Source: Salinibacterium sp. M195 (lineage in GTDB: Bacteria > Actinomycetota > Actinomycetes > Actinomycetales > Microbacteriaceae). Taken from it: a stretch of DNA of 64,000 nucleotides. The translations under genes and the position numbers were made by a program. The stretch spans positions 1,736,001-1,800,000 of the forward strand of contig NZ_CP040814.1 in the NCBI RefSeq assembly GCF_019443965.1, given 5' to 3'. Below are positions 6,105 to 43,416 of the stretch, in pieces. The stretch's first letter is position 1. Every line of letters begins with the position of its first letter. The notes beneath the pieces are model-generated. The model ran no database searches and was not told the DNA's origin. It saw nothing but the letters and a program-made list of their open reading frames with translations.

Positions 6105-6173
6105 ATGGGCGGAGCGGACGGGACGGAAGAGTCGAGCGTGAGAGGAAGAGCGGAGGGCCGAGAGCGCGGAGCG

Positions 6174-6920
6174 CTAGCGCGGGCCTGCGGCGGCCTTGGC
6201 GTACTCCGCGAATGTGGCTCGCCCATCACCGGGGAGCGTGCTGAGGTGGTCACCGCGCGCAAAAGATCGCCCGACCGCGCCAGGCATCGGCACCGTCCAC
6301 ACAGGGCGACGAAAGCTGTGGGCAGAGTTCCATTGTTGCGCCAGCGCCGTGAACGAGAGCTGCTCTGGCCCGGCGAAGTCGGCAACGCGCTGGCTGGGCC
6401 CGGCAGCCACCAGCGCCGTCAGGCGTTCGGCGACTTCCTCGACCGCGACCGGCTGCATTGTGAACGCTGGCACTACCGTCACTGGTGACCAACGTTGAGC
6501 GCTGAAGAGCCGCGAAACGAAGCTATGAAACTGAGTGGCGCGAAGAATCGTGTAGGGAATACCCGAAGCGGCAATCAGATGCTCGCTGAGGAATTTGTCG
6601 CGATAGTAGGCGAGTGAGTGCTTGTCGACGCCGACGATTGACATGAAGATGAGGTGCTCAACGGGATGCGCGGCCAAAGCGTCTAAGAGAATCCGGGTTT
6701 GTTGCGAATCGCGGGCATTCGCGCCAGAAGCGAGGTGCACGACCGTGGTGACTCCGGCGAGGGCATCCTGGAGTCCGATGCCGGTTGAGAGATCAGCGAC
6801 GACGGTCTCTGAATTGTGTGCGGGGTGTCGACTGAGGGACCGCACAGAGTATCCCGCTGCGCGGAGCAAATCCACGGTCGGCTTGCCGAGAGTGCCGGTG
6901 GCACCGGTAACGAGAATCAT
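6174..6920 (-). CDS. NmrA-like NAD(P)-binding protein (atypical SDR)
   Basis: The 248-residue Rossmann protein opens with MILVTGATGTLGKPTVDLL, which contains the TGATGxLG dinucleotide-binding loop of the NmrA/HSCARG-like atypical SDRs. A second conserved region is VVHLASGANARD. An Arg at the end of beta-2 (SLSRHP) suggests NADP(H) preference. This subfamily usually lacks the YxxxK pair and serves as an NAD(P)H quinone reductase or redox sensor; a precise role cannot be read from the sequence. It stands alone on the minus strand between the repeat element and the divergent recO gene, with about 150 bases of shared upstream region. Confidence 0.85.
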   Translation of the reverse strand: MILVTGATGTLGKPTVDLLRAAGYSVRSLSRHPAHNSETVVADLSTGIGLQDALAGVTTVVHLASGANARDSQQTRILLDALAAHPVEHLIFMSIVGVDKHSLAYYRDKFLSEHLIAASGIPYTILRATQFHSFVSRLFSAQRWSPVTVVPAFTMQPVAVEEVAERLTALVAAGPSQRVADFAGPEQLSFTALAQQWNSAHSFRRPVWTVPMPGAVGRSFARGDHLSTLPGDGRATFAEYAKAAAGPR

Positions 6921-7805: not shown

Positions 7806-8614
7806 GCCGCGTAGCCAAAACTCACAAAGATGCCGTGGAGTTTCGTCCTCTTGATTGGACGGGCATCCAGCCGCCGGCGTTGCCGAAGGGCTCTGTTCCT
7901 GAGCACATCGCGCTCGTCATGGATGGCAATGGCCGTTGGGCTAACGCCCGCGGACTCACCAGGGTGGAAGGCCATAAGGCGGGGGAAGCGAGCCTTCTTG
8001 ATGTCGTGGCTGGCGCTATCCAGATCGGCGTGAAGCACATTAGCGTGTATGCGTTCTCGACCGAGAATTGGAGCCGTTCGCCGGACGAGGTGCGCTTTCT
8101 TATGGGCTTCAACCGCGACGTGTTGCACCGTCGCCGAGACCAACTCAATGAGTGGGGTGTGCGTGTGCGCTGGGCTGGGCGACGCCCGCGGCTGTGGACT
8201 TCCGTAATCAAAGAATTGCAGTTCGCAGAGAAACTCACCGAGAAGAACAGCACCATTACGCTCACAATGTGCGTCAACTATGGCGGACGCACGGAGATCG
8301 CGGATGCCGTGCGCTCGATTGCTGACGATGTGGCGGCGGGCAAGCTGAGGCCGTCAGCAGTGTCGGAAAAACTCATCCAGAAGCGTCTTTATCAGCCGCA
8401 ATTACCTGACGTTGACTTGTTTGTGCGCTCGTCGGGGGAGCAGCGGATGAGCAACTTCATGCTCTGGCAGAGTGCCTATGCAGAGATGGTGTTTCTTGAC
8501 CGTTTGTGGCCCGATTTCACGCGCGAAGACTTGTGGGAAGCGATTCGCATTTATGCGAGCCGTACGCGCCGTTTCGGTGGGGCAGTCGATGCTCCGACGG
8601 GCGACGACGGCTAA
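7802..8614 (+). CDS. uppS: isoprenyl transferase (undecaprenyl/decaprenyl diphosphate synthase)
   Basis: This is a cis-prenyltransferase that elongates isoprenyl diphosphates with IPP to make the lipid carrier for peptidoglycan and wall polysaccharides. Its 270 residues include [14 protein letters not shown] (P-loop-like motif with the catalytic Asp), [11 protein letters not shown] and the C-terminal [24 protein letters not shown] signature. ATG overlaps the recO stop (ATGA), so the two are translationally coupled. Actinobacteria often carry a second, short-chain homologue elsewhere, so the product chain length (C50 or C55) is not certain. Confidence 0.95.
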
Positions 8615-13175: not shown

Positions 13176-14326
13176 TCTTTCTCGACTCAGCAGCAACCAC
13201 ACCCGTGCGCCGTGAGGTGCTGGAGGCGATGTGGCCGTTGCTGACGGGAGACTTCGGTAACCCCTCAAGTCATCACGAGCTGGGGGAGTCCGCGAAGCGT
13301 GCCCTTGATGGTGCGCGCAAGAGTGTCGCCGCGTCGATCGGGTGTCGCGCATCCGATGTCATCTTCACCTCGGGCGGCACGGAGTCAGACAACTTAGCGA
13401 TCAAGGGATTGGCGCTCGCCGAGCCTCGGGGGCGCCACATCGTCACGAGTGCTGTTGAGCACGAAGCAGTGCTCGAATCCGTTGACTATCTCGCACGGAT
13501 CCACGACTTCGAGATCACGGTGTTGCCGGTAGACAGTCGCGGCCGTGTCGATCTCGACCACGTGCGTGACGCGCTGCGCCCCGATACGACCCTCTGCGCC
13601 ATCATGTACGCCAATAACGAGGTCGGTGTTGTGCAGCCCATTGCGGCGATAGCCGAGCTCTGTCGAGTACACGGGGTGCCGTTGCATACGGACGCGGTGC
13701 AAGCCGCCGGTTGGCTTCCTCTCGACCCTGCGGGGTTGGGCGTCGACGCGCTCAGTCTCTCGGGTCACAAACTCGGGGCGCCGAAAGGCATTGGCGTGCT
13801 AATTGCCAAGGGCCGCCGAAGCCTTGAGCCTGTGCTGCACGGGGGAGGCCAAGAACGCGGCAAGCGCTCCGGAACAGAGAACGTTGCCGGTGCGGTGGGC
13901 TTCGCTCATGCCCTTGCGCTCGCAGAAAGCGACCGTATTGAGCGTGCGGAGCGCATAGGGCAGCTGCGTAATGACTTCGTGGCCGATGTGCAGGCCCGCG
14001 TACCGGCTGCGATCCTCACCGGGCCCGAACTTGGCGCGTCATCCCACCGCCTCCCCAACAACGCCTCGTTCTGTTTCCCCGGCACCAGCGGCGAATCACT
14101 GCTGCTCGAACTCGGTCGCGCCGGCATCATCTGCTCAGCAGGCTCAGCCTGCGCGGTCGGAAGCGATGACGCCTCCCACGTGCTCACCGCAATGGGAATT
14201 GACGAAGAAGTCGCGCAAACCGCGGTGCGTTTCAGCCTCAGCGGGGAGACCACTGCCGAAGAACTCGCCACCGTCGCCGCCGAGATCGAGACCGCCTACC
14301 GTGCGGTGCGCTCGCTCTCGGGGTAA
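13172..14326 (+). CDS. cysteine desulfurase, NifS/IscS type
   Basis: This PLP enzyme mobilises sulfur from cysteine. The 384-residue protein has LDSAATTPVR at the start, FTSGGTESDNLAIKG, the PLP-Asp region HTDAVQAAG, the PLP-Lys in SLSGHKLGAPKG and the catalytic Cys loop SAGSACAVGSDDASHVL. Its place at the end of a nrtR-nadABC operon, with a 4-base overlap, suggests it builds the Fe-S cluster of NadA, as known for NifS-like enzymes co-encoded with nadA in other bacteria. A general Isc/Suf role is not excluded. Its 3' end overlaps the convergent LysR gene by 31 bases. Confidence 0.92.
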   Translation: MIFLDSAATTPVRREVLEAMWPLLTGDFGNPSSHHELGESAKRALDGARKSVAASIGCRASDVIFTSGGTESDNLAIKGLALAEPRGRHIVTSAVEHEAVLESVDYLARIHDFEITVLPVDSRGRVDLDHVRDALRPDTTLCAIMYANNEVGVVQPIAAIAELCRVHGVPLHTDAVQAAGWLPLDPAGLGVDALSLSGHKLGAPKGIGVLIAKGRRSLEPVLHGGGQERGKRSGTENVAGAVGFAHALALAESDRIERAERIGQLRNDFVADVQARVPAAILTGPELGASSHRLPNNASFCFPGTSGESLLLELGRAGIICSAGSACAVGSDDASHVLTAMGIDEEVAQTAVRFSLSGETTAEELATVAAEIETAYRAVRSLSG

Positions 14327-15282: not shown

Positions 15283-15339
15283 TCTTCGTATCTCAATCAT
15301 GCCCTTGTCGCATGTATCCGACCGGGGCACTATGGAGGC

Positions 15340-16386
15340 ATGACATCACCGGCCCTGACCCACGCGATGGGGAGCTTCGCCAACACGCACGGCTACCTCT
15401 CTGCCGCCACCATGGGTTTGCCGACGTGCGCTGCCGTCGCCGAGATGACCGAGAAACTTCAACAGTGGGCCACTGCAACCTGCAACCCCATGAACTACGG
15501 CGACATTGTTGAGCGCACGCGCGGGCACTACGCGCGCCTCGTCGGCATCGACTCCACTCGCGTTGCCATCGGCTCGCAGACCTCGGTCATGGCCTCGCTC
15601 ATTGCGTGCTCGCTGCCCGCCGGCTCGCACGTGCTCGTCGTCGAATCCGACTTCACGTCGATCGTGTTCCCGTTTCTGCAACACCGCGACCTCATCGTGC
15701 AGGCGGTTCCGCTGGAGAAACTTGCCGCCTCGATCACCGACAGCACCGCACTCGTCGTGTTCTCGCTCATCCAATCCTGCAACGGCAAAGTCGCCGACAC
15801 TGAGGCGATTATCGCGGCAGCCGCCCAGCACGGGGCTCGCACGCTGTGCGACGTGACCCAAGCTGCCGGCGTCTACCCGGTGGATGCCAGCCAATACGAC
15901 GCGACCGTCTGCCACGCCTACAAATGGTTGTGTTCGCCGCGCGGCGTCGCGTTTCTCACAATCTCCGAGGATTTTGGCCAGCACATCACTCCCGTTCAGG
16001 CCGGCTGGTACGCCGGTGATGATGTGTGGGGCAGCGTCTACGGAACCGAAATGAACCTCGCCAAGGATGCGCGCCAATTCGATGTTTCGCCCGCGTGGCA
16101 AGCCTGGGTAGGCGCCGAGCATCCCATCGCCATGTTCGCCGACCTCGACATTTCCGAAGTGTGGGAGCACTGCGCCGGCCTTGGCAACGCGCTGTGCGAC
16201 GAGCTCGGAATTGAGCGTCAAAACCAAGCGATCGTCACCTGGCCAGACGAAACGGGCAGCGATCTCGCCAAACTCACCGCCGCAGGTATCACCGCCTCCG
16301 GTCGTGCCGGCCGACTCCGCGCCGCCTTTCACCTCTGGAATACCGAAGAAGATGTTGCGGCGGTTATCGCTGCGCTGCGCGTCTAG
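15340..16386 (+). CDS. aminotransferase class V-fold PLP enzyme
   Basis: The product of about 348 residues (from ATG 15340) has the class V fold: SQTSVMASLIACSLP near residue 77, the PLP-Asp in LCDVTQAAGVYPVD, and the Schiff-base Lys in CHAYKWLCSPRGVAF. It resembles kynureninase/isopenicillin-epimerase-like members of unknown substrate. A GGAGG lies only 1 base before the ATG, so initiation could instead occur at a downstream codon such as ATG 15367. It is divergent from a LysR regulator that probably controls it. No pathway partner is adjacent. Confidence 0.85.
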   Translation: MTSPALTHAMGSFANTHGYLSAATMGLPTCAAVAEMTEKLQQWATATCNPMNYGDIVERTRGHYARLVGIDSTRVAIGSQTSVMASLIACSLPAGSHVLVVESDFTSIVFPFLQHRDLIVQAVPLEKLAASITDSTALVVFSLIQSCNGKVADTEAIIAAAAQHGARTLCDVTQAAGVYPVDASQYDATVCHAYKWLCSPRGVAFLTISEDFGQHITPVQAGWYAGDDVWGSVYGTEMNLAKDARQFDVSPAWQAWVGAEHPIAMFADLDISEVWEHCAGLGNALCDELGIERQNQAIVTWPDETGSDLAKLTAAGITASGRAGRLRAAFHLWNTEEDVAAVIAALRV

Positions 16387-39703: not shown

Positions 39704-39828
39704 AAGCCAAACGTAGGAGCGCTGGATGAATGATTGCTCAAAGTTTTTTGTGAGGATGCCGAACAGCCGTGCGAACGGACGACCACTTTGCCGGTAACGT
39801 AGATACGCGTTCGCACTAGTGCGGACTC

Positions 39829-39868
39829 GGGGCGGTAGCTCAGCTGGTTAGAGCAGCGGACTCATAAT
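39829..39868 (+). pseudogene. 5' half of a split tRNA gene (anticodon CAT)
   Basis: The 40 bases contain acceptor GGGGCGG (39829-39835), TA, D-arm GCTC...GAGC, anticodon 5' stem GCGGA and loop CTCATAA, then T. The sequence then leaves tRNA homology abruptly at 39869. The missing 3' half is at 43189-43233. Its acceptor strand CCGCCCT pairs fully with GGGGCGG (one G-U), and its anticodon strand TCCGT pairs with GCGGA (one G-U), so the two were one gene. The CAT anticodon means elongator/initiator Met or the Ile2 precursor. Confidence 0.85.
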
Positions 39869-39918
39869 TGCTTGTTCCACGCAAAATACGCACGCGAACT
39901 ATGGGATTTTGGCGGCAA

Positions 39919-39933
39919 GTGCACCCTACGGTG
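39919..39933. repeat. 15-bp repeat near the left island end
   Basis: GTGCACCCTACGGTG occurs here 50 bases inside the left att core, and again at 43063-43077 about 110 bases inside the right core. In a 64-kb window one or two 15-mer repeats can arise by chance, but the placement near both ends makes an arm-type recombinase site possible. Confidence 0.4.
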
Positions 39934-40253
39934 ATCCCTATATTTTTGCCGGTTCTTCTCCCGTAACCAGCGGAATTTTTCCATCGGTTTGACTCTCAGT
40001 GACAGATTCCGAACCGCTGATGACAGTCGGCGAAATCGACTATTGACGCCTCGCAACAGCGCATGCGGCACCCGCAAAGCGGGTTTTGCCGACTACAACG
40101 GTCTTGTGCAGTCCAGTGTCCGTGCTCGCAAATTTTTACCTCGAACCGATCCGTGAGCGGCCTCGTCTCAGGCTTCTGCTCGTGCTAGAGGTGCGCTAAA
40201 GTCAGGATGTCCAGCACTGTAGTGAGCGGTGCTCAAAGATGAGTGAGGGAACC

Positions 40254-42551
40254 ATGCTTACGCGCATAGAGAAGATCAGTGGAACTGGGCTATTGCATCA
40301 TGCGACGGGCGCAAATCTGAAGCTTGAGCCTGTGTCTCTTATCTACGCGCAAAATGGTCGAGGTAAGTCGACGCTCAGCGCGGTCCTTCGCTCGGTTGCA
40401 ACTGGTAATTCCGACGAAATATTATGTCGAAAGACCATCGATGGAACCAACGATCAGACCGCTAGGCTCCAGTTTCAAAACGGGCAACGAAGCATCTTCG
40501 CGAATGGCATGTGGGACTCCACCCGTCCCGAGTTGCTCATCTTTGACACTCATTTCATCGAAAGTAACGTTTATTCGGGCGTGAGCGTTACGACCGAGCA
40601 CCGTCGAAATTTGCTCGATTTTGCTATCGGAAATCGCGCTGTCGACGCTCGTCAAACGGAAGAAGCTGCGGCGTCGACTCTTCAGGAATCCAAGGACGCC
40701 TTGCAATCCGTTAGGGGGAAGATCGAGGCGTTAGCCCAAGGATTGTCGGCCGAGCAGTTCGAGGTGTTGCCGCAAGTCGCCGACATCGAGGTAAAACTAG
40801 AAGCCTTAAAAACACTCCGTGCCGACGCGGAGCGTTCTGAAATCATCCTTGAGCAGGCTTTGCCGTCGCGCCTGTCGAAAGTGAAACTCGACGTCGACCA
40901 AATTTTCGAAATTCTCAACACCCAGCTCGAAGGAATTGAGACAAATGCAGAAGCCGTGGTGCTTGAGCATCTTCGTTCTCTCCGTGGCGAGTCATCATTG
41001 GAAGAGTGGGTAAGTGAAGGCCTTAGTCACCAAGTGGGCGACTCTTGCCCATTCTGCGCGCAATCGACTTCTGGTGTCGAATTGGTCGAAATGTACCGGG
41101 ACTACTTCAACCAAGAGTTTCTAAATTTTAAGAAGGAAATCTCGGTTGGAAGGGCTGCCGTTGAGCTCGCAACGGATGATGGTGCCGCCGCGAACTTTCG
41201 TTCCGAGCAGACAGCGCTAGGCAATCAGATACGAATGTGGAATGTCTTAGTCGGGCAGAGTTCGTTAACCTCCTTGGACGATTCGGAATTCGAGACTCTT
41301 TTGGCCGCGGTAAATCGAAAGTTGTTGGGACTGTTCGACGTAAAGATTCAAAACCCTGCCAGCCAGCCGGGAAGTGAGGGCGCAAAGGCTGAGGTCGCGA
41401 TGCAACTGGATATGTGCAATTCGATCATTGAGTCTCAAAACGCGGTCCTCGAAACCAACGAGATTGCTATCAATGCCTATCGAGCCGCGCTTGCGGGCGC
41501 TTCCGTTGAGATGATCGACGGCCAGATTGCATCCCTTGAACAAACGATCGTTCGTTTCGATTCGGCGACTGCTGGTTTCTTCTTAGAGTTCGAAGCTCTG
41601 AAGTCCAAAGTGGCGGCAGCGGAACGAGCAAAGTTGGAGGCTCGATCGGCACTCACTACCATCATGTCGGCGACGCTTGACGCGTACAGCACGAGTATCA
41701 ATGGGATTCTTTCCAAGCTCGGTGCTGCTTTTTCCATCCAGAGTTTGAGCAACAACTTCCGGGGCGGAACAGCCCGTAGCAACTATGAAATTTCGCTGCG
41801 AGGGCGGGCTGTCGGCCTTAGCGGCGGGGAGCCCGCGTTTGATACAGCGTTGAGCGAGGGGGACAAGCGCACGCTCGCTTTTGCATTCTTCGTTGCGTCT
41901 GCGCTGGCAGATCCAGACTTGGCTTCGAAGACTCTCATTATCGATGACCCTGTTAGCAGTTTGGACAGACATCGTAGAGAGAGCACTATTGCGCTTCTCA
42001 GTAGACTGGCGGATGCAAGCGAGCAGTTGATCGTCCTCGGGCATGACGCCGTGTTCTTGCGTGCCCTTCGCGACTCGTTGAATAAGTCTGCTGAGCGTTC
42101 TATCGCTGAGTTGGAGATTCAGCACGTTGGCTCGGCCTACTCAGATTTCGCTGCGTTTGATCTCGACATCGAATGCGAGACTCCCTATTACAGCGATTAT
42201 CGAGCCGTAAGCGACTTTGTTCAGGGACGGTCGCAGGACGCTTCTGCGGCAGCCAAGGGTCTTCGTCCGCTCCTGGAAGGGCACTTACACCGCCGTTTCC
42301 CTGGTCTTATCCCAAATGGCCGTATGTTGGGTAGCTCGATCACGGAAATAGCTGCGGCCACACCCCCTAGTCCGCTTGCTCTGGTCGCCCCGTGGGTTCC
42401 AGAGCTTCGCGAATTGAACGACTTCGCAAGCGGCTTCCATCACTCGACGGAACACGCGCGTCAATTGGAGCCAGCCGATGATGCCTCAGTCCGCTCTTTC
42501 GGGGAGCGCGTCCTCAACATGATTCACGGGGCCCCGGTTCCGGAGTTCTAA
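40254..42551 (+). CDS. PrrC/RloC-like AAA_13 ATPase, predicted tRNA anticodon nuclease
   Basis: The 765-residue protein (ATG 40254 after GAGGGAACC; an in-frame ATG at 40239 is possible) has an ABC/SMC-like ATPase split by a long coiled coil. It has Walker A AQNGRGKST (32-40), signature LSEGDKRTLAFAFFVA, Walker B TLIIDDPVSSLD with D564-D565, and His597 in LGHDAVF. In the coiled coil, CPFC (Cys265, Cys268) is a zinc-hook-like motif as in RloC. The C-terminal ~110 residues contain Arg671-x3-Glu675 (GLRPLLEGHL) and His729/730 (LNDFASGFHHST), similar in order to the Arg320/Glu324/His356 triad of PrrC anticodon nuclease. Family membership (PF13166) is well supported; nuclease activity is inference. 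It is the only long gene of the island. Confidence 0.82.
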   Translation: MLTRIEKISGTGLLHHATGANLKLEPVSLIYAQNGRGKSTLSAVLRSVATGNSDEILCRKTIDGTNDQTARLQFQNGQRSIFANGMWDSTRPELLIFDTHFIESNVYSGVSVTTEHRRNLLDFAIGNRAVDARQTEEAAASTLQESKDALQSVRGKIEALAQGLSAEQFEVLPQVADIEVKLEALKTLRADAERSEIILEQALPSRLSKVKLDVDQIFEILNTQLEGIETNAEAVVLEHLRSLRGESSLEEWVSEGLSHQVGDSCPFCAQSTSGVELVEMYRDYFNQEFLNFKKEISVGRAAVELATDDGAAANFRSEQTALGNQIRMWNVLVGQSSLTSLDDSEFETLLAAVNRKLLGLFDVKIQNPASQPGSEGAKAEVAMQLDMCNSIIESQNAVLETNEIAINAYRAALAGASVEMIDGQIASLEQTIVRFDSATAGFFLEFEALKSKVAAAERAKLEARSALTTIMSATLDAYSTSINGILSKLGAAFSIQSLSNNFRGGTARSNYEISLRGRAVGLSGGEPAFDTALSEGDKRTLAFAFFVASALADPDLASKTLIIDDPVSSLDRHRRESTIALLSRLADASEQLIVLGHDAVFLRALRDSLNKSAERSIAELEIQHVGSAYSDFAAFDLDIECETPYYSDYRAVSDFVQGRSQDASAAAKGLRPLLEGHLHRRFPGLIPNGRMLGSSITEIAAATPPSPLALVAPWVPELRELNDFASGFHHSTEHARQLEPADDASVRSFGERVLNMIHGAPVPEF

Positions 42552-42732
42552 TCCGTTTTCAGGTGCAGCTGGTGTGAGAGTAGGTGCTGGAATCTTCATG
42601 AGCCCGTATCATCCGTACATTACGAGTAGGGCAATTGCTCCTGCTGCGGCTCGTATCGAACCGAGTGGTCCAGAAAGGGCGGATCAGTTCTTGGCCTTCG
42701 CGAGGGCTTCGAACCAATAGGATTGTCTGCAA
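42552..42732 (+). other. non-coding stretch between nuclease gene and island tRNA
   Basis: I see no gene, hairpin or clear promoter in these 181 bases. The tRNA that follows must be transcribed from here or by readthrough from the nuclease gene. Confidence 0.5.
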
Positions 42733-42806
42733 GGGGTGGTAGCTCAGCTGGTTAGAGCACCCGGCTCATAACCGGGCAGTCGCGGGTTCAAGTCCCGCCC
42801 ACCCTA
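42733..42806 (+). tRNA. tRNA with anticodon CAT (Met or Ile2), island-borne
   Basis: The complete 74-base cloverleaf has acceptor GGGGTGG/CCACCCT (one G-U), D-arm GCTC...GAGC, anticodon stem CCCGG/CCGGG with loop CTCATAA, T-arm GCGGG-TTCAAGT-CCCGC and discriminator A. It differs from the split tRNA in acceptor, anticodon-stem and variable regions, so it is not a duplicate. Whether it is elongator Met or the lysidine-modified Ile2 tRNA cannot be settled by eye. Confidence 0.92.
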
Positions 42807-43188
42807 CAAGCGCCCATAACGGGCGAATCCCCTGAAGCAAGTGCGCATTGTCGTTCCATCCGAACTTTGGGAGCTCTTTCGGCCGCACGAGCAAGCAGGT
42901 GGTCTGTTTCCGGCGCGTCTCGTGTCGGTTACCGCGAGAGTGCCGATTCGACTGCGACGTAGATTTGCTTCGGCTCCGGCTCATGGCTCGTTGCGGCCGC
43001 TCGTGACCTTGGTCACTTTTCGCGCGGTGGTGCTCGCAGTGCGCTACTCGGACCGCGAGCAGGTGCACCCTACGGTGCACCCTACGCTACGACCCCGTAC
43101 GACCCCGTACGGGGGTCTCAGCGGAACGCAATCCAGCAAACCGCTGCAAGAACCACGTAAACCAAGGGATCTCGAAAGTGCTCGCTAT
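42807..43188. other. right part of the island without a convincing gene
   Basis: A long plus-strand frame runs through this stretch and on across the split tRNA half, but it has no recognisable domain and cannot be real across the tRNA. Two 12-bp tandem copies of GTGCACCCTACG (43063-43086), two copies of TACGACCCCG (43088-43107) and the hairpin GACCCC-GTACG-GGGGTC (43101-43117) cluster near the right end. Confidence 0.5.
43063..43117. repeat. tandem repeats and hairpin at the right island end
   Basis: GTGCACCCTACG is repeated twice in tandem and is followed by two tandem TACGACCCCG units that run into a 6-bp palindromic stem (GACCCC/GGGGTC). The first unit matches the repeat at 39919-39933 near the other end of the island. 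These could be recombinase arm sites, but no recombinase is present to test against. Confidence 0.6.
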
Positions 43189-43233
43189 GGACTCATAATC
43201 CGTCGGTCATGGGTTCAAGTCCCATCCGCCCTA
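43189..43233 (+). pseudogene. 3' half of the split tRNA gene (anticodon CAT)
   Basis: After the repeated core GGACTCATAAT come TCCGT-type anticodon 3' stem, variable loop, T-arm ATGGG-TTCAAGT-CCCAT, acceptor CCGCCCT and discriminator A at 43233. It restores a full cloverleaf when joined to 39829-39868. As it stands there is no promoter or 5' half, so it cannot yield a tRNA unless the halves are joined in trans or the island excises. Confidence 0.85.
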
Positions 43234-43416
43234 CGAATATGGCTCTGGATCTGTGATATTTCAGAGTTTTTGGCCTTCGCGTGGGAGGCTGAATTGTCCG
43301 GATACACGAAACCTACGCCCCGACCTACGCTTACAGGGATGCGGCGCGTGACAAGAAGCTTCGGGAAACTTTGGCTTTTGACGGATGCGGTCCGCCGTAC
43401 GTCTAGGGATTTCCGG

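Follow-up and report, generated by a model that had tools for sequence, protein, structure and literature searches.

The present study concerns a 3.3-kilobase (kb) island in the genome of Salinibacterium sp. M195 (Microbacteriaceae), located within a stretch of 64,000 nucleotides (nt) (contig NZ_CP040814.1, positions 1,736,001 to 1,800,000) that was analysed as a whole and is referred to as the window. The island lies between the two halves of a transfer RNA (tRNA) gene with the anticodon CAT and carries a second, complete tRNA gene. The features of the locus, including an open reading frame (ORF) of the island, are as follows, in window coordinates:

39787..39809, + strand: block TTTGCCGGTAACGTAGATACGCG upstream of the split tRNA, little changed ahead of the intact tRNA of relatives
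39829..39868, + strand: 5' half of the host tRNA (nt 1-40)
39858..39868, + strand: left copy of the 11-base core, holding the anticodon loop CTCATAA
39919..39940, + strand: left arm-like repeat, containing GTGCACCCTACGGTGATCCCTA and starting 51 nt past the loop
40239..42551, + strand: ORF of 770 amino acids, AAA_13 / PADLOC PDC-S06, with RloC-like features; homologues begin at residue 6
42733..42806, + strand: complete carried tRNA(CAT), assigned to the Ile2 type, 61/74 identical to the split gene
43063..43086, + strand: right arm-like repeat, made up of two GTGCACCCTACG copies that start 129 and 117 nt ahead of the right loop
43189..43199, + strand: right copy of the 11-base core
43189..43233, + strand: 3' half of the host tRNA (nt 30-74)

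Several observations indicate that one tRNA gene has been interrupted. First, joining the two halves gives a sequence of 74 nt that ARAGORN calls tRNA-Met(cat), and across the join the acceptor stem is paired at 7 of 7 positions and the anticodon stem at 5 of 5. Second, the joined sequence is found at full length in 24 of 26 other same-genus genomes, being identical in 7, 91-97% identical in 16 and 84% identical in one (G018); no match was obtained in the remaining two genomes searched, G003 and G013. Because the joined halves form a tRNA that is intact in these relatives, we conclude that a single tRNA gene was split. Third, the left flank of the window adjoins the intact tRNA in 11 of the 24 relative loci fetched, mostly with 1.5 kb of flank. 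Within the window, the core GGACTCATAAT is confined to 39858-39868 and 43189-43199, and the gene is rebuilt at neither junction. These results bear out the original prediction, made from the sequence alone, that one tRNA(CAT) gene is cut in its anticodon loop, that its halves pair perfectly, that the 11-bp repeat at the junctions is att-like and that neither end is rebuilt. The two checks it proposed, for an uninterrupted tRNA in relatives and for a joined sequence recognizable as tRNA, both gave the expected answer. Compared with Escherichia coli, the split gene agrees better with ileY (56/76 columns) than with metT (50/74); judged by sequence, it is of the Ile2 type, which reads AUA. The upstream block is probably the old promoter of this tRNA.

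The complete tRNA gene at 42733-42806 had been overlooked in the original prediction, whose account of the interval was incomplete in this respect. The one-contig genome contains 44 tRNAs according to Rfam, and ARAGORN gave the anticodon of each. Only three intact genes have the anticodon CAT: an initiator-like gene (genome position 2667414), an elongator-Met-like gene beside Thr-ggt (150518) and the gene in the island. An Ile-TAT gene was not found among the 44, and the AUA codon is in use, e.g. at codon 10 of the island ORF. The comparison with E. coli does not decide the type of the carried gene (ileY 52/74, metT 51/75), which is 79-96% identical to eight genes of the Ile2 locus and 78-85% identical to five Met genes. 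Its Ile2 type follows from its being the third CAT gene and from its likeness to the G018 gene, which is sited downstream of the same glycosyltransferase gene and is 96% identical to it. By this assignment, no intact gene of the Ile2 type other than that of the island is present in the window genome. Since a complete tRNA is carried in the island, the cell could do without the split gene, the carried tRNA presumably being expressed, modified by TilS and functional. This gene also bears on the idea that the halves are transcribed separately and joined as RNA, as in some archaea, with the second tRNA incidental. The upstream block kept before the 5' half and the full pairing of the halves are compatible with such joining, but the carried tRNA makes it unnecessary and bacteria are not known to join tRNA halves by trans-splicing; this explanation is hardly credible. 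Archaeal-type split tRNAs are defined, in the part of PMC3293823 used here, by complementary leaders and a bulge-helix-bulge motif at the break. As a separate observation, a direct repeat of 21 bases (90%) is present at 42686-42706, before the carried tRNA, and at 43265-43285, just after the host 3' half, and is perhaps a trace of tRNA capture.

The ends of the island point to the manner of its entry. The 14-base core of the arm-like repeats, TGCACCCTACGGTG, has exactly two copies in the 3.04 megabases of the genome, one at each island end, and 200 pairs of segments taken from inside the island shared at most 12 of 14 bases. The attP attachment site of a tyrosine integrase consists of arm sites, core and arm sites. 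If the island were circularised, its ends would read in this same order, which fits the attP plan; an attP of about 250 bp is given in the portion of PMC4383910 consulted. The exact arm patterns of two of the islands considered here had no match in viral contigs. The route of entry, called unknown in the original prediction, is thus narrowed, as the arm-like repeats at both ends point to a tyrosine integrase. Its remark that no recombinase gene is visible holds for the tyrosine type, no PF00589 gene being present in the window; serine recombinases were not searched. The genome encodes two PF00589 proteins elsewhere (1524481 and 2268296, open frames of 335 and 314 amino acids), both of which are Xer-like by size only.

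The locus is not a unique case: the same plan was observed in three other genera. A tRNA search was performed in 398 genomes of the family, with the best matches listed; coordinates were listed for two sets of 14 and 47 genomes, selected mainly because the tRNA match was weak, absent or doubled, and reading covered 27 loci in 25 genomes. Three of these (G089, G127 and G077) have a 5' half, an island with arm-like repeats and a complete divergent tRNA, and a 3' half, in the following orders:

G089: 5' half, weakly HEPN-like gene, ParA-like gene, complete tRNA (opposite strand), 3' half
G127: 5' half, complete tRNA, GmrSD_N gene (PADLOC NsnA), weakly HEPN-like gene, 3' half
G077: 5' half, complete tRNA, two small ORFs, AAA_21 ATPase (PADLOC HEC-04), 3' half

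Both weak HEPN matches are under the cut-off of Pfam, and no tyrosine integrase was found among the main ORFs of these three islands. From loop to loop, the islands measure 2309, 2356 and 2698 nt, compared with 3331 nt in the window. The left arm starts 52 nt past the loop in all three and 51 nt past it in the window, and the right arm starts 129, 112 and 130 nt before the loop (129 nt in the window), with a second copy 12-13 nt nearer. The arm sequences differ between the four islands, and in the window, G127 and G077 the arm match exceeds all 200 internal controls. The agreement in arm distance is a stronger argument than the arm match itself. In G127 (locus L215), the left loop reads CTGATAA instead of CTCATAA. 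The four islands are a lower bound, and no frequency is claimed; tRNA fragments on short contigs or at contig ends (G251, G257, G347, G152, G387 and G153) were left uncounted. The backbone of the window island (42552-43188) was matched at E <= 1e-24 in 3 of the 398 genomes, namely the window genome itself and two that match through the tRNA part only. An assembly error can be set aside as extremely improbable, given that the window genome is one contig and that the plan recurs in three other genomes, two of them also of one contig.

The recurrence also bears on whether the insertion was site-specific. Homologous recombination or chromosomal transfer might have placed a foreign tRNA, together with its neighbors, between the native halves, in line with the likeness of the carried tRNAs to native genes of other lineages and with the 21-base repeat. 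However, the break falls in the anticodon loop in all four islands and the arms lie at matching distances, while the content is otherwise different, and we regard this explanation as very unlikely. The source of the carried tRNAs is a different matter. The carried gene of G127 is 93% identical to a gene of G158 that directly follows a glycosyltransferase gene, and because the carried genes resemble native genes of other lineages, it is likely, as judged from these comparisons, that they were captured from a chromosome. Phages and plasmids were also considered as a source; the best matches, 87.5% (Mycobacterium phage Hilltopfarm) and 86.1% (a Streptomyces plasmid), were lower than those to native genes of relatives. 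The island plan was not annotated in the stretches viewed of four phage and plasmid records.

Islands that do rebuild the same tRNA were found as well. At 11 loci (G001, G016, G023, G057, G116, G126, G167, G205, G330, G361 and G395), an intact tRNA is followed by a displaced 3' part downstream. Clear arms were observed in three (G001, G126 and G395) of the 12 loci tested, these 11 and G071, with arms starting 84-91 nt past the loop on the left and 103-132 nt before it on the right. The left arm is thereby 33-40 nt further out in these rebuilding islands than in those that split the gene, and the part of the tRNA after the loop measures 35 nt. Because these two lengths are nearly equal, the islands that split the gene look like rebuilding islands without the tRNA 3' part. 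A tyrosine integrase is present in the islands of G395 and G023. The G126 island carries a GmrSD_N gene, 25% identical over 286 columns to that of G127, and a HEPN gene; the second genes of the G126 and G127 islands gave no alignment. A 5-kb rebuilding island at the same tRNA in G205 (L280) carries TIR-TM and Shedu-like genes. Elongator tRNA-Met may be another island site, as its 31-base 3' part is duplicated nearby in G015:C2 (355409, 356692), G006:C2 (619948, 624121) and G001:C2 (102417, 106336).

From these loci, it could be argued that the four islands are of no distinct kind, i.e. that they are ordinary gene-rebuilding islands in which the rebuilt 3' half was lost by decay once the island had entered, the additional tRNA being chance cargo or a later arrival that became needed only then. 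Two loci agree with such decay. In G059, a partial fifth case with a complete tRNA, tRNA-like sequence extends to about nt 53 and the arm lies at +84, as in rebuilding islands; its right half was not found in the 14 kb fetched, and it was left out of the count. In G071 (L272), an intact native tRNA at 8243 is followed, 7 kb on, by a second complete tRNA (85%) at 15295 and a 3' part at 15501, and this locus is perhaps an intermediate. Against decay, the left arm stands at 51-52 nt in all four islands, as expected if the 3' part is missing as a block and was not mutated in place; a complete divergent tRNA is present in all four; and an essential gene could decay only after a second copy was present. 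We therefore consider decay after entry unlikely.

Herein, we propose instead that these are self-complementing islands, moved by an integrase acting in trans, in which the carried tRNA replaces the gene that is broken; this is the best reading of the data and we hold it to be probable. According to this proposal, the 3.3-kb island would be a small integrative element without its own integrase. Its attP, in which arm sites flank an anticodon-loop core, would have been joined to the anticodon loop of the host tRNA-Ile2(CAU) gene by a tyrosine integrase that either acted in trans or was lost afterwards. As this attP would be without the tRNA 3' part, the host gene would stay broken, and the complete tRNA-Ile2 gene from another lineage would take its place. 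The acquisition of a whole tRNA might have made the old tRNA 3' part of the element dispensable. In a rebuilt gene, the host 5' half is joined to the 3' half from the element, and the two must pair. Between host 5' and carried 3' halves, 2, 3, 3 and 4 of the 5 anticodon-stem pairs would form in the window genome, G089, G127 and G077, respectively, compared with 5, 5, 4 and 5 within the host genes and 5, 5, 4 and 4 within the carried genes. As predicted from these pairings, carrying a whole tRNA avoids a stem mismatch, clearly so in three of the four cases. In summary, the four loci suggest, at the level of sequence, mobile islands that replace rather than repair the gene they break.

Several results weigh against this proposal. 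The right flank of the window is not common to the relatives fetched, and consequently the empty site of the window is supported on the left only. From 43234 to 64000 and on to G000:C1:1801356, no such synteny with the relatives fetched was seen, and their usual right neighbor, a dehalogenase-like gene (named by eye), is 22 kb off in the window genome. For G127, the congener G321 does support an empty site, as its intact tRNA (6173-6246) lies between flanks collinear with those of G127, the left one ending at 6140 and the right one resuming at 6615; this right flank is present in one of three congeners only, with 369 nt after the tRNA of G321 and 129 nt after the 3' half of G127 unmatched, and the other two (G189 and G239) have only the left flank in common with G127. 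The arm match of G089, taken alone, is at chance level, being reached by 17 of 200 pairs of internal segments, and the arms are unclear in 9 of the 12 rebuilding loci. A scan gave no sigma-70-like promoter right before the carried tRNA of the window. In addition, a further CAT gene of G127 (1594951) fits Met and some Ile2 genes equally, and for this reason there may be a second gene of the carried type in that genome. In G089, all but one of the other matching genes were read, and these proved to be Met and Lys; in G077, tRNA matches were listed to E <= 1e-9 only.

The cargo of the window island resembles the anticodon nuclease RloC. The protein has in common with RloC, as presented in the part of PMC2610378 used, a Rad50-like ATPase, a CX2C hook between coiled coils and a C-terminal Arg-X3-Glu...His motif. 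In 15 aligned proteins, the Walker A residues, C270 and C273 (CX2C), R676, E680, H734 and H735 are invariant. The family differs from RloC in that the R-X3-E...HH motif has a Glu-to-His spacing of 53-54 residues, compared with 36-52 (PMC2610378, same part). One source applies the name "wobble nucleotide-excising tRNase" to several of the 51 relatives of the ORF. In the structural model (predicted local distance difference test, pLDDT, 80.8; predicted template modelling score, pTM, 0.53), long helices lie on both sides of the CX2C hook. A fold search with this model gave SMC/Rad50-like heads, Lamassu LmuB and retron proteins among the matches listed, and a nuclease fold was identified neither in the model nor among these matches. 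The likeness to RloC is confined to the window island, and the other three carry other cargo. Because the other islands carry other genes, the presence of a predicted anticodon nuclease in an anticodon-loop island, although striking, is read as defence cargo, and the cargo of these islands is probably anti-phage, judging from the defence-like genes. No close relative of the ORF was found in 24 same-genus genomes searched. RloC-like relatives were located in genome contigs at 66 loci, 8 of which have a tRNA in the fetched stretch, and a partial tRNA copy was seen at none of the latter by the blastn test used. At one locus (L139), a relative of the cargo ATPase is flanked by complete tRNA-Arg genes (2535-2611 and 13238-13314) that are 98.7% identical; at another (L087:7648-10712, G030), a relative 38% identical lies about 690 nt past a tRNA-His.

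Among known systems, the closest are the islands found by Islander, which restore the target gene from a fragment in attP and must contain an integrase (PMC4383910, as far as drawn upon here). The islands described herein resemble them, on the same source, in the tRNA-gene target, the anticodon-loop crossover, the short repeats that border the island and the arm-like sites. They differ in that they do not rebuild the gene, that no integrase was found among the island ORFs tested and that, in G089, the complete tRNA has the opposite orientation. In the window island, integration lies within a tRNA gene, displaced fragments (both halves) are present and an attP with core and arm sites is present by sequence layout; restoration of the gene from an attP fragment and an own tyrosine integrase are absent. 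In other words, the window island works like a tRNA-targeting integrative island but lacks two defining features, rebuilding and its own integrase. A tRNA-Thr locus of Caldiarchaeum likewise has a tRNA fragment beside a full, different version of the tRNA with a mobile element between, although, in the section of PMC3293823 available to us, it is archaeal, involves tRNA introns and an encoded recombinase, and has a 5' fragment only, with no flanking pair of halves. Tycheposons are also cargo islands bordered by tRNA, sometimes tRNA-Met(cat); in contrast, they encode a tyrosine recombinase and span 4-200 kb, and a split host tRNA is not mentioned in the portion of PMC10872708 consulted. No island carrying a replacement for the tRNA it breaks was found in the titles and opening lines of abstracts in the literature searched, outside which most subscription papers and preprints lie.

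Mobile DNA classically integrates at tRNA genes, because the gene broken on insertion is restored by the element (PMC4383910, in the part cited above). The window island very probably replaces the tRNA gene it broke. If true, this represents a second way for elements to target essential genes, by bringing a replacement. It would also be a simple means of element maintenance, and tRNA genes would be moved between genera. Islander would miss the islands that split the gene, because its filters reject candidates without an integrase, and small defence-carrying islands of this sort would escape any search that requires both an integrase and a rebuilt tRNA (filters as given in the same part of PMC4383910). 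We tentatively raise the possibility, which we rate somewhat below even, that such islands form a class of non-autonomous defence elements that, on entry, disrupt an essential tRNA gene present in a single copy and thereafter provide the sole functional one. Unless the island were excised precisely, its loss would then kill the cell, amounting to maintenance by tRNA replacement, an RNA-gene addiction, and a whole foreign tRNA might free the element from matching the host 3' half, so that the anticodon loop would be the sole target needed and genera could be crossed.

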